This document shows, piece after piece, positions 50,633 through 55,409 of a stretch of DNA of 64,000 nt. How positions within the stretch are numbered: the first letter of the stretch is position 1; each line of letters starts with the position of its first letter. The notes beneath the pieces were generated by a model, which did not search any database, was not told the origin of the DNA, and saw only the letters and a list, made by a program, of their open reading frames with translations. Origin of the DNA: Halorientalis litorea (GTDB taxonomy: Archaea; Halobacteriota; Halobacteria; Halobacteriales; Haloarculaceae); assembly GCF_023028225.1 (NCBI RefSeq), contig NZ_CP095482.1:496001-560000 (forward strand). Direction: 5' to 3'. The translations under genes were made by a program, and so were the position numbers.

Positions 50633-51898
50633 ATGATATTCTTTCTGTTGAAAATCGTCCGGTTCTTCGTCGGACTGTTGGTGAAAGTAGTGTCGTTGCC
50701 GGTGAAGTTGGTGTTGAAACTGCTCGGGGCACAGCAGTCCGACGACGAGGCGTTCCCGTCGAGCGACCCTGACACGGGAACCGCTAGTGGGGCTGTCACT
50801 TCCACGGACACCGAGACGACGGCCGCTGACGGCCCGCTCGATGTCGGGGCCGCACAGGCGAAGACGAACATCGAGCGGTTCCGCAAGGGGATGCTCGCCG
50901 TCGGCGCGCTCCAGTTGCTACTGGGACTCGTCAGCATCTACGGGCTGTTACAGGCGCAACTGACGCAGCTACCAGCCGGACTCGTCGGGAGCGTCGTCGG
51001 CGTCTCGCTCCTCTTCGCGCTAGTCCCCATCGTGGTCGGCCTCAAACTCCGGTCGTACCCGTCCGGACTGTGGTACGTCGGGATGGGGATGTGCGTACTC
51101 GTCGCCGTCGGGTCGCTGTTTGAACTCCCCGGCGGCCTCGTCGGGACGGCCGTCTACGGCGCGCTCGGCTACCTCGGCTACACCGGCCGTCCGGCACTCT
51201 CGACACTCGGCGACGGTGACCCGGCCGGCGAGAGTCGAACGGAGACGCCACACCAGCCGAACACACAGGGCACTGCACCGGCGGACGCGGGCGGTGAGAC
51301 GGTGCCGGCGTCGGACTCGAACACTGCCAGCGCGGACACGGGGACGGAAACCACCCCGGCGGCCAGTGACCGGGACACGTCGCCGACGGGCGTGCCCAGC
51401 GATTCCACAGCACCCGCGACAGCCACGGACGAGGAGAGGGCGGCGGACGCAGGCGCCGAAACGGACGACGGTTCCGCCGCGCCAGCGGAGGCGGCGGACG
51501 ACGCTGAAACAGCGGAGACGGCCGCCGACGGTGCGACCGCCACAGCCGAACCGGACGGCGCAGACGAGGACGGCGATACGACACCGGCGGCGGACGCCGG
51601 GAGTGATACCCTCGAAGGCTATCACGACGAACTGACCGCGCCAGACCCCGAGACACGGGAATCGGCCGTCGCGGACCTCGCGGCCGCGACTCGGGAGGAC
51701 GCAGTCCCGAGTCAGGCCGCCATCGACGCGCTCACCGAGCGGCTCGACGACGACGACGCCGCCGTCCGGGCCGCCGCCTGTCGGGCACTCGGTGACCTCG
51801 GTGCGGAGCGGGCGAAGCCGACGCTGAAAGACCTGCGCCTCGACACGGACCCGGACGTAAGTCGCGCAGCGAGTCAAGCACTCAGGGAGATAGAATGA
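50633..51898 (+). CDS. Membrane protein with C-terminal HEAT-type repeats (operon gene 1)
   Basis: This 421-residue protein has an N-terminal amphipathic/hydrophobic anchor (MIFFLLKIVRFFVGLLVKVVSLPVKLVLKLLGAQ). A helical membrane region follows (residues 85-185: GMLAVGALQLLLGLVSIYGLL, LVGSVVGVSLLFALVPIVVGLKL, GLWYVGMGMCVLVAVGSLF), then a very long acidic Ala/Asp/Thr-rich disordered linker (residues 190-325) and two HEAT-like repeats (TRESAVADLAAATREDAV..., LDDDDAAVRAAACRALGDLGAERAKPTLKDLRLDTDPDVSRAASQALREIE). It could hold a partner at the membrane. Its stop overlaps a mini-ORF (ATGA). Confidence 0.75.
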   Translation: MIFFLLKIVRFFVGLLVKVVSLPVKLVLKLLGAQQSDDEAFPSSDPDTGTASGAVTSTDTETTAADGPLDVGAAQAKTNIERFRKGMLAVGALQLLLGLVSIYGLLQAQLTQLPAGLVGSVVGVSLLFALVPIVVGLKLRSYPSGLWYVGMGMCVLVAVGSLFELPGGLVGTAVYGALGYLGYTGRPALSTLGDGDPAGESRTETPHQPNTQGTAPADAGGETVPASDSNTASADTGTETTPAASDRDTSPTGVPSDSTAPATATDEERAADAGAETDDGSAAPAEAADDAETAETAADGATATAEPDGADEDGDTTPAADAGSDTLEGYHDELTAPDPETRESAVADLAAATREDAVPSQAAIDALTERLDDDDAAVRAAACRALGDLGAERAKPTLKDLRLDTDPDVSRAASQALREIE

Positions 51899-51999
51899 CC
51901 GACACGAACCCGACGACAGTTCCACGAACCGGACGCACAGTTTCGAGCCAGCGACACGACACCACGGAACTCGGAGGTGACGGCGATGCGCGTGCGTGA
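51895..51999 (+). CDS. Candidate 34-residue mini-ORF in the operon
   Basis: The ATGA overlap with the upstream stop opens a 34-codon frame (MTDTNPTTVPRTGRTVSSQ...GDGDARA) that runs to TGA at 51999, overlapping the next gene's first 14 bases. It contains the Shine-Dalgarno of that gene. It may be a real microprotein or a translational coupler; it has no recognised domain. Confidence 0.35.
   Translation: MTDTNPTTVPRTGRTVSSQRHDTTELGGDGDARA
51973..51980 (+). promoter_or_regulatory. Consensus Shine-Dalgarno for operon gene 2
   Basis: GGAGGTGA lies 5 nt before the ATG at 51986, an excellent match to the 16S 3' end and rare in this mostly leaderless or overlap-driven window. It decides the start over the in-frame GTG at 51977. 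Confidence 0.7.
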
Positions 52000-53653
52000 T
52001 GTCGTGTACGAGAGCGACGGACCGGCCGACGAGGACACGGCGCGGGCACTCGCAATCAACGAGGTTCTGCGGGAACCGCTGTCGGAGTTCCTCGACGAAC
52101 AGCAGACGCGGTTGCGGTACGTGCTCGCAATCGGACTCGTCGCCGTCGTCCTCGGCGTCGGTGCACTGGCCGCCGATGCCGGCGCGGCGGTCGGCGGCGG
52201 CCTCGTCGCGGTCGGTCTCGCCGTCGGCGGCGGTGGCTACGCGTACCTCAACAGCCAGTCGCCCGACGTGACGGTTCGGTCGGTGCAGAAGGGATACTGG
52301 ACGGCGCACTGCCTCCCCGTACAGGACGGGGCGATACTCTACGACGCCACGAAGTCGGTCGGGACGACGCGGTTCGAACTCGAACAGTTGACCGACCCGG
52401 AGGCGATTGCCAGCGCGAACGAACGGCTCACCGACATCGAAGAGTTCCCCGTCGTGATGCCCCGAGACGGAAACGTCGAGGAGACAGTTACGGGGACGCT
52501 CGACGAGGTCAAGGCCGAAATCGAGACGGCAGAGCAGTACACCGTGCAGGCACCAGTCGTCCCGGCTGAGGGGGCCGAACGCGAGGCCGTCGAGTCGTTG
52601 GCGGGACTGGCCGAGGACGACAGCGTCTCGGCGGACGTGGACGTGTCGGTCGACGAGGCACGGAGCGACGTCCGAGAACTGGACGAGTTAGAGCAGATGG
52701 CGGCCGCCGAGGGTGCCGAGAGCGAACTGGAGTCGCTGTCGGACACTAGCCGGCAGTTGGTCGAGGACCTCTCGGGGATGCAGGAGACTGCGGTCGACCT
52801 GCTGAACGACCACATCGGGACGGCGGCGGACGCGTTCGGCCTCGTGAGCTACAACTTCTACTGTCCCGACTGCCAGACGGACGACATCGACTCGGTCGTC
52901 GAACTGTCCGACCCACAGGATGGCGACTGGTACTGTGAGACGTGCCGGACGACCCACGACACGGCAGCCGTCATCCCGCGCCACCGCATCAAGGACGATA
53001 TCGTCAACCCCGTCTGGGACCAGTTGTGGCGAGAGAAAGACGACCAACGGCGCGAGATTTACGAGAACATCGAGGACCAGAAGGCGGACCTGCAGGAACG
53101 AGAGTTCGAGCAACGCCGTGAGGAGATTCGGTCGACGACCGACCGCATTCGAGAACTCCGGTCCCGGATTCGTGACCTCAAGACCGAGGCGAAGGCCGCC
53201 GAGGGGAAAGTCTCCGAAATCGGCGACCTGATGGTCAAATACGAGCGGCTCCACGACCAGCGAAAGCAGGCCTTCGAGGAGGAAGTCGAGTCGTCCTTCG
53301 CGGAAATCGACGCCGAGACGGACCAGATACTCGAAGAGACGCGCAACGAGGAACAGAAGCGAATCGAGGCGGCAGAGCAGGCGGCCAAAGAGAAAGCCGA
53401 GATGATGCGCGAAGAGGAGCGGCGGCGGGAAGTGGAGAAGTTCGTCGCCGAGCAACAACTGGCGGACGAACGCGCCCGTGCGCAGCTCGAACATCAAAAG
53501 GAAGAGATGGCGATGGAACGCAAACACCACCGCGAGGACTGGATGCTCGAAACCCGGGGACGCACGTCGTTCTCGGGACACATCGACAAGATGCGACAGC
53601 GGAAAGACCGGGTGCTCGGAGCCACGGCGCGCGACCACGGGGGTGATTCCTGA
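51986..53653 (+). CDS. Membrane, zinc-ribbon and coiled-coil protein (operon gene 2)
   Basis: This 555-residue protein has a membrane hairpin at residues 43-90 (YVLAIGLVAVVLGVGALAADAGAAVGGGLVAVGLAVGGGGYAYL), a soluble alpha/beta region (95-285) including acidic helices, a zinc ribbon near 288-325 (FYCPDCQTDDID...WYCETCRTTH) and a long, highly charged coiled coil (345-530, KDDQRREIYENIEDQKADLQEREFEQRREEIRS...AEQAAKEKAEMMREEERRREVEKF). It resembles no named family to me. Its stop overlaps gene 3 (TGATG), so complex formation with the coiled-coil protein encoded there is likely. Confidence 0.75.
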   Translation: MRVRDVVYESDGPADEDTARALAINEVLREPLSEFLDEQQTRLRYVLAIGLVAVVLGVGALAADAGAAVGGGLVAVGLAVGGGGYAYLNSQSPDVTVRSVQKGYWTAHCLPVQDGAILYDATKSVGTTRFELEQLTDPEAIASANERLTDIEEFPVVMPRDGNVEETVTGTLDEVKAEIETAEQYTVQAPVVPAEGAEREAVESLAGLAEDDSVSADVDVSVDEARSDVRELDELEQMAAAEGAESELESLSDTSRQLVEDLSGMQETAVDLLNDHIGTAADAFGLVSYNFYCPDCQTDDIDSVVELSDPQDGDWYCETCRTTHDTAAVIPRHRIKDDIVNPVWDQLWREKDDQRREIYENIEDQKADLQEREFEQRREEIRSTTDRIRELRSRIRDLKTEAKAAEGKVSEIGDLMVKYERLHDQRKQAFEEEVESSFAEIDAETDQILEETRNEEQKRIEAAEQAAKEKAEMMREEERRREVEKFVAEQQLADERARAQLEHQKEEMAMERKHHREDWMLETRGRTSFSGHIDKMRQRKDRVLGATARDHGGDS

Positions 53654-54600
53654 TGGCGAACGACGACCTACTGAAGCCGCTCCGGGCGATAAACGAGACC
53701 ATCGCGAACCTCCGGCAGGACGTTCAGAAACTCACCGGAGAGGCCAAGAAAATCAAGGAGGCCATCACCGAGTCCGCTCAGACGATTCGTGACGCCATTC
53801 AGGAGAACATCCAGGCACAGGCGGAACTCAAGCTGATGGAGTACGTCATGGAGGTGAAGTCGGTCAAGCCACAGATAGACGCCGAGTTCGAGCAAATCAA
53901 GACCGAGCGGAGTGAGCTCGAAGGTCGACTCGAGAGCATCGGCGAGCGGTACGAGCGGAAACAGGCCGAGCTGGACGAGAAGGCACAGGAGCGAATCCGG
54001 GACCTCGGGTCACACATCTTCGAGATAGAGGAAGACCAGTTCGAGAACGGTATCGAGGACCCGTTCACGTCGCAAGTGACCACCGCGTGGCAGGCACTCC
54101 AAGCACACAACGCGGACGTGGGGGAAGAGCGGTCACAGGCGGTCCGAGATACCACGAGCGAAGCCGTCCAGACGATGTACGACTTCGTCGACCGACAGGA
54201 GCAACTCCTCGACACCATCGAGGACCACCGGTTCGACTCGGCCGAAACGCCGTTGCCGACCGACGAGTACGACCAGTTACAGGTGCCGTACTACGTCGTC
54301 GAGTACGAGCAGGACGGTGTCGTGAACCAGCAGGTCGTCGTCCCGTCACAGGTGTCGAACGACGGGACCGACTGGTGTGCCGCCTCGCTCGACGCCGACG
54401 CTGGCGTCGAGTCACTCATGGGTAACGTCACCCCGGTATCGGACCCGGCGACGACCGACACGCTGTCGGAAGGAACCGTCAGTGAGGCGCTCGGTCGGTA
54501 CGGCGAGTCGTCGCCGCTCGGCCTCTCGTACGCCGACGCCGCGACGGACGCCATGCCGGACAGTGGCAGGGTCGAGGTCCAACAGGAGGTCGACGAGTAA
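53653..54600 (+). CDS. Coiled-coil protein (operon gene 3)
   Basis: This 315-residue soluble protein is helical and coiled-coil for its first 200 residues (LLKPLRAINETIANLRQDVQKLTGEAKKIKEAITESAQTIRDAIQENIQAQAELKLMEY..., ERSELEGRLESIGERYERKQAELDEKAQERI), with a more globular end (QVPYYVVEYEQDGVVNQQVVVPSQVSND). The regular heptads suggest a rod or oligomer. Both ends overlap neighbours (TGATG, TAATG). No known domain is recognised. Confidence 0.75.
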   Translation: MANDDLLKPLRAINETIANLRQDVQKLTGEAKKIKEAITESAQTIRDAIQENIQAQAELKLMEYVMEVKSVKPQIDAEFEQIKTERSELEGRLESIGERYERKQAELDEKAQERIRDLGSHIFEIEEDQFENGIEDPFTSQVTTAWQALQAHNADVGEERSQAVRDTTSEAVQTMYDFVDRQEQLLDTIEDHRFDSAETPLPTDEYDQLQVPYYVVEYEQDGVVNQQVVVPSQVSNDGTDWCAASLDADAGVESLMGNVTPVSDPATTDTLSEGTVSEALGRYGESSPLGLSYADAATDAMPDSGRVEVQQEVDE

Positions 54601-55409
54601 TGGCGCACATCGAGCAAAACCGTGCCGTCGTCGAGAGCGACGAGACGTTCGACGGGCGCATCGCTCCGGCCGAGCAGGCGGAAATCGGTCGTCCCGTCCG
54701 GTTGCGCGACGGAGCAACCATCGAGGGGAGCGTGTACGGTGGAACTGTCGAAACCGAGGCCGGAGTCACCGTCGAGGGGTCGGTCATGGCCGACGACGGC
54801 ATCGAACTCGACGGAACCCGCGTCGGCGGCGAAGTCGGCACACCCGACAAGGTAGTTGCGTCCGACAGCCACATCGACGGGACGGTCACCGGACAGCGGG
54901 TCCGACTCGTCGACTGTATCGTTCGCGGGAACGTCGTCGGGGCGAACGTCATCCTCGAAGACTGCATCGTCTTGGGTATCGCGACTGCGGAGCGTCGCCT
55001 CGCCGTCGAGGACTCGCTGTGTTACACGTTCCGCAGTCAGGGTGAGACCGAACTCCGGGACGCCACGCTCGTTCTCCCGCAGGCCATCGCGGACGGGCCG
55101 CTCGACATCGAAACGCCGGTCACGGTGGCCGGACTCGGGAACATGGACGTGACCGACGACGCCGAGAGCGACGGGCGTCTGCCGGAGATGGACGCGAACG
55201 ACTGCTACGAACAGGACGGGACGACGTACCTCACGCTCGCGCCACGCATCCTCAACCTCGAAAAGGTCACCGGCCGTCTCGAAGAACTCGAGCGAGCGGT
55301 GATGGCCGCCGTCGACGACACGAGCGGCGACGGCGGCACCGAGATGAGCGTCGAGGACGTCCTCTCGCTGTTCGACGTCGACCACGGACACGCGTCGACG
55401 CCGGGCTGA
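54600..55409 (+). CDS. Bactofilin-like polymer-forming beta-helix protein (operon gene 4)
   Basis: This 269-residue protein has a repetitive G-V/I pattern (about residues 15-165: GRPVRLRDGATIEGSVYGGTVETEAGVTVEGSVMADDGIELDGTRVGGEVGTPDKVVASDSHIDGTVTGQRVRLVDCIVRGNVVGANVILEDCIVLG) that spells a right-handed beta-helix as in bactofilins/halofilins, which polymerise without nucleotide. The C-terminus has a short helix (LEKVTGRLEELERAVMAAVDD). It overlaps gene 3 by TAATG. Its location in the operon points to a scaffold for the membrane and coiled-coil partners. Confidence 0.7.
   Translation: MAHIEQNRAVVESDETFDGRIAPAEQAEIGRPVRLRDGATIEGSVYGGTVETEAGVTVEGSVMADDGIELDGTRVGGEVGTPDKVVASDSHIDGTVTGQRVRLVDCIVRGNVVGANVILEDCIVLGIATAERRLAVEDSLCYTFRSQGETELRDATLVLPQAIADGPLDIETPVTVAGLGNMDVTDDAESDGRLPEMDANDCYEQDGTTYLTLAPRILNLEKVTGRLEELERAVMAAVDDTSGDGGTEMSVEDVLSLFDVDHGHASTPG

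Follow-up and report, generated by a model that had tools for sequence, protein, structure and literature searches.

Bactofilins (PF04519; halofilins in haloarchaea) are among the described proteins with which the locus reported here may best be compared. Like the product of its gene D, they are beta-solenoid proteins and possible polymers, and they too are encoded alongside coiled-coil proteins and a partner anchored in the membrane. Archaeal ESCRT systems offer another comparison: according to the main text of Makarova et al. (2024; PMC10936438), every system of the 'Main' clade encodes arCOG09748 and arCOG08177, many contain kinases, and bactofilin or beta-helix proteins go unmentioned in that text. 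Some ESCRT loci of archaea also encode SPFH/zinc-ribbon proteins, which combine a coiled coil and a zinc ribbon in one protein.

By analogy, the operon described here, which comprises genes A to D, would work like known membrane-scaffold systems, but it differs from bactofilin scaffolds in that its obligate partners B and C are new and that it contains no cell-wall enzyme. In contrast to archaeal ESCRT systems, none of A to D is an ESCRT subunit. B likewise joins coiled coil and zinc ribbon in one protein, but without the SPFH domain of the SPFH/zinc-ribbon proteins, and the Band_7-like/double zinc-ribbon protein is a gene separate from B in the ESCRT-type loci of genomes G010, G282 and G146. 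No match to any described system was found, in line with the original prediction that the operon was undescribed.

Operon Organization

The operon lies in the window, a stretch of 64,000 nucleotides from the genome of Halorientalis litorea (G000), and has the following features.

50633-51898, + strand: gene A, 421 aa
51626-51886, + strand: C-terminal HEAT part of gene A (HEAT_2)
51895-51999, + strand: mini-ORF of 34 codons, running past the start of B
51973-51980, + strand: Shine-Dalgarno sequence GGAGGTGA, 5 bases 5' of the ATG of B at 51986
51986-53653, + strand: gene B, 555 aa from ATG 51986
52109-52255, + strand: predicted membrane hairpin of B (hydropathy)
52862-52945, + strand: zinc ribbon of B (four-Cys motif CPDC..CETC)
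53003-53554, + strand: long coiled coil/helical hairpin of B
53653-54600, + strand: gene C, 315 aa (soluble coiled coil and C-terminal domain)
54600-55409, + strand: gene D, 269 aa (beta-solenoid and short C-terminal helices)
about 54687-55127, + strand: beta-solenoid part of D (AlphaFold model)

Four tightly joined genes and a 34-codon mini-ORF had been predicted, and the reading frames and their stop/start overlaps were indeed as claimed, with ATGA between A and the mini-ORF, TGATG between B and C, and TAATG between C and D. A GTG at 51977 falls within the Shine-Dalgarno sequence of B, and the start of B was taken to be the ATG at 51986. An ATGA-coupled mini-ORF of 29 to 35 codons bridges the gap between A and B in 4 of the 5 compared loci with A upstream; the sequences of these four are unrelated, position being kept and sequence not, and the mini-ORF is at most a translational-coupling element. 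The suggestion that a 340-bp leader exerts tight control found no support, as the DNA immediately 5' of the operon displayed no visible conservation among the relatives compared, and the leader was dropped as a regulatory element.

Distribution and Mobility of B-C-D

In 19/19 carrier genomes, B, C and D follow one another directly and in this order, and the joint inheritance expected of the operon, checked through gene order in relatives, was thus upheld for these three genes. Extended to A, it was seen in 13 of the 19 carriers (A upstream in seven, downstream in six), and A was not found in the remaining 6/19. One carrier with A downstream has a second, divergent copy. Whole-genome searches of 293 Halobacteriales genomes gave one and the same set of 14 carriers for all three genes: B was detected in 14, full-length D in the same 14, and C in 15, one of these being a weak 63-residue match. 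Three further carriers came from 146 genomes sampled at family level, G001 being already known as one, and a phylum-level sample gave one carrier outside the order, G323. Compared with Halorientalis regularis (G002), the window genes gave dN/dS values of about 0.13 for B, 0.10 for C, 0.18 for D and 0.28 for A. Judging from these comparisons, B-C-D forms an obligate genetic unit on which purifying selection acts, and A is best described as its optional membrane/HEAT partner.

The window operon comes after the gene for ribosomal protein S8e. The genes to the left of S8e are conserved in six relatives; on its right, the stretches read from these same six yielded no counterpart of any of the window's genes. 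The H. regularis copy of the operon occupies a different chromosomal site. In the B-C-D tree, four members of the window's genus fall in three places, and further genera and families are likewise divided. The unit is mobile, as indicated by this patchy distribution, by its different sites in close relatives and by the conflict between tree and taxonomy. Carriage by a virus or plasmid was also considered and rejected, a search of IMG/VR, phage and plasmid records having returned no relative of B.

A patchy, mobile set of membrane, coiled-coil and HEAT proteins, with weak coiled-coil/HEAT matches to defense models, could be read as an antiviral or other conflict system. We hold this to be improbable, since A to D contain no nuclease, NTPase, toxin or other effector domain, the PADLOC matches are coiled-coil/HEAT background only (the best being LmuB at 2e-6, in B), and the ESCRT-type neighborhood described below is no defense signature.

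Predicted Products of A, B, and C

Membrane anchors had been expected in two products, and hydropathy gave transmembrane segments in A and a single hairpin-length hydrophobic stretch in B (residues ~40-90). The N terminus of A is a basic amphipathic helix, and the protein continues with about 3-4 transmembrane segments (residues ~85-167), an Ala/Thr/Asp-rich linker and a HEAT_2 match (E 3.3e-14) limited to residues 332-418. Its description as a membrane HEAT protein thus stands, with the restriction that the HEAT part is small.

In B, all four Cys of the zinc ribbon are invariant in 19/19 carriers, and long helices flank an invariant Gly407. The structure model of B is of low confidence (pLDDT 67, pTM 0.27), and a fold search with it was uninformative for this reason; a match to 7rdr (1.5e-7) was taken as a chance helical match, as 7rdr is a repeat protein and no stretch passes alone. 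C has no transmembrane segment and is a soluble coiled coil, in agreement with the free coiled-coil rod that had been proposed, followed by a C-terminal domain, as judged from a 16-member alignment. Profile searches placed B in no named family above cut-off and gave C only coiled-coil matches, all below cut-off. By these searches, B and C are two families without a name, no family scoring above any cut-off. A comparison of B and C as paralogues was not convincing, and C was rejected as an ESCRT-III homologue for want of profile similarity. In G081, B is frameshifted, with a split frame at L033 10313-11772, and two extra B N-terminal fragments are present (G081:C1:895346-895495 and G081:C1:1496217-1496369), one of them ~8 kb from ESCRT-type genes.

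Relationship of D to Bactofilins

The AlphaFold model of D (pLDDT 82, pTM 0.80) is a beta-solenoid, confident over residues 31-180 (block pLDDT ~88-98), in which the hydropathy peak at 110-130 is a beta-strand. D had been proposed to be a beta-helix of the bactofilin type; the fold part of this proposal is borne out by the model, while family membership is marginal and D is bactofilin-like in architecture. Against PF04519, the window copy reaches 18.1 bits, short of the Pfam gathering cut-off of 27.9, and the model matched no PDB fold at E <= 0.001 (best 0.04), solved bactofilins included. Two orthologues lie just over the cut-off (G191, 28.6; G006, 28.4, the latter with its neighbors in frame), and 15/16 D homologues match PF04519 weakly (E <= 0.01). 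An hhalign comparison of D with bactofilin domains of the same genomes gave 94.6% over 74 columns, a value that generic solenoid repeats could also give. These sequence matches speak for a stand-alone bactofilin-type cytoskeleton, acting in shape, polarity or envelope stress and lying beside ESCRT genes only incidentally in particular lineages, and the lack of a fold match to a solved bactofilin speaks against it. We consider this reading possible but doubtful, also in view of the gene neighborhoods discussed below.

A solenoid of this kind might also belong to a left-handed hexapeptide-repeat enzyme of the acyltransferase type, in an operon that modifies lipids or glycans, in line with LbH_EIF2B matches in 9/16 D homologues and with weak eIF2B/GlmU sequence matches in the PDB. 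This is very improbable: the 19 D sequences hold no near-invariant His of the kind that is catalytic in LbH enzymes (no His column kept in at least 16 of them), D gave no significant fold match to LpxA, LpxD or carbonic anhydrase, and its partners are not enzymes.

A clear bactofilin domain (56.6 bits) is encoded elsewhere in the window's genome, in a 581-codon frame (G000:C1:349884-350258, L113). The C-terminal part of D was also seen outside the operon, at G054:C1:334145-334423 and, in an 89-codon frame of G016, at G016:C3:114005-114217 (L069).

ESCRT-Type Neighborhood and Proposed Function

B-C-D lies within ~8 kb of an ESCRT-type locus and a kinase in two haloarchaea, G010 and G282, and in G323, a distant low-GC archaeon (32% GC) outside the order. 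In G010, a single strand encodes, in this order, an ESCRT-III-like protein, a Vps4-like ATPase, a transmembrane protein, a Band_7-like/double zinc-ribbon protein, a helical-repeat protein, a Ser/Thr kinase, B, C, D and A, and an arCOG09748/08177-like pair is divergent from this run. G282 carries these genes too, likewise arranged around the divergent pair, its kinase directly adjoining B, and in G323 two ESCRT-III/Vps4-like pairs, a 664-aa helical protein and a kinase precede B-C-D. These loci have the layout of the 'Main' clade as set out in the main text of Makarova et al. (2024; PMC10936438), with arCOG09748/08177 identities assigned from published descriptions, not by database match. In G191, the genes beside B-C-D include a member of the kinase family and one related to the transmembrane protein of the ESCRT loci, and ESCRT-type genes are on other contigs.

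The Vps4-like ATPase aligned end to end with the CdvC model, at 177 bits for a cut-off of 650, and its N terminus gave sub-threshold MIT matches (E 0.002-0.004) in G081 and G191. The ESCRT-III-like protein was picked by its position, its size and a charge pattern in which a basic first half is followed by an acidic second half; it had no significant profile match (Pfam Snf7, E 0.66) and no PDB match.

The arCOG09748-like marker is absent from 14/19 carriers, the window's genome among them, which favors a bactofilin cytoskeleton independent of ESCRT. Neither an ESCRT-III-like nor an arCOG09748-like match was found in G000, and the ESCRT link is therefore a lead on function in relatives and not a property of this genome. 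Among the 293 genomes, the marker was present in 10, namely in 4/14 carriers versus 6/279 non-carriers (4 co-occurrences observed versus 0.48 expected; hypergeometric P 5.9e-4, uncorrected for phylogeny). These four haloarchaea fall within one clade of the B-C-D tree, so that their co-occurrences are not four independent events. Independent support for the link comes from physical adjacency, seen in that clade and a second time in G323; such recurrence in two lineages very distant from each other (G010/G282 and G323), together with the gene content of G191, argues against an incidental neighborhood.

The predicted products resemble a membrane-anchored scaffold, as had been proposed. The explanation that we favor, with evenly balanced confidence, is that this mobile operon encodes a membrane-anchored cytoplasmic scaffold or coat that is coupled to ESCRT in some lineages. 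From a mechanistic point of view, the hairpin of B would anchor the protein and leave both its ends in the cytoplasm, C would bridge the rod of B to D, and D would assemble on the membrane as an oligomeric patch or filament, while the amphipathic helix and HEAT part of A would adapt the scaffold to membrane or partners. For one clade of haloarchaea and for a distant archaeon, we propose that this scaffold serves ESCRT-III/Vps4-like remodeling under the control of a Ser/Thr kinase; in genomes without an ESCRT-type locus, such as that of the window, it would work alone or with unlinked partners. More tentatively, B-C-D(-A) might be an unrecognized coat or scaffold module of archaeal ESCRT-type remodeling that is also able to travel and work alone, in which case the hairpin and solenoid proteins would shape or mark the membrane where the ESCRT-III/Vps4-like proteins and the kinase act. 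If true, this ESCRT-coupled coat would lie further from known membrane-scaffold systems than a plain scaffold does.

The constant inheritance of two unnamed families, B and C, together with a beta-solenoid protein points to an archaeal membrane scaffold still unstudied, and their recurrent adjacency to ESCRT-III/Vps4-like genes offers a testable hypothesis on the partners of the poorly understood haloarchaeal ESCRT loci.

Gene order is conserved in the haloarchaeal ESCRT-type loci L099 3380-8719, L102 10637-15901 and L103 2282-7047, namely ESCRT-III-like, Vps4-like, (transmembrane protein), Band_7-like/double zinc-ribbon and helical-repeat, and it is also found in G146, without B-C-D. In G323 (L106 6916-13646), a single arCOG09748/08177-like pair has an ESCRT-III/Vps4-like pair on either side, the two being different.
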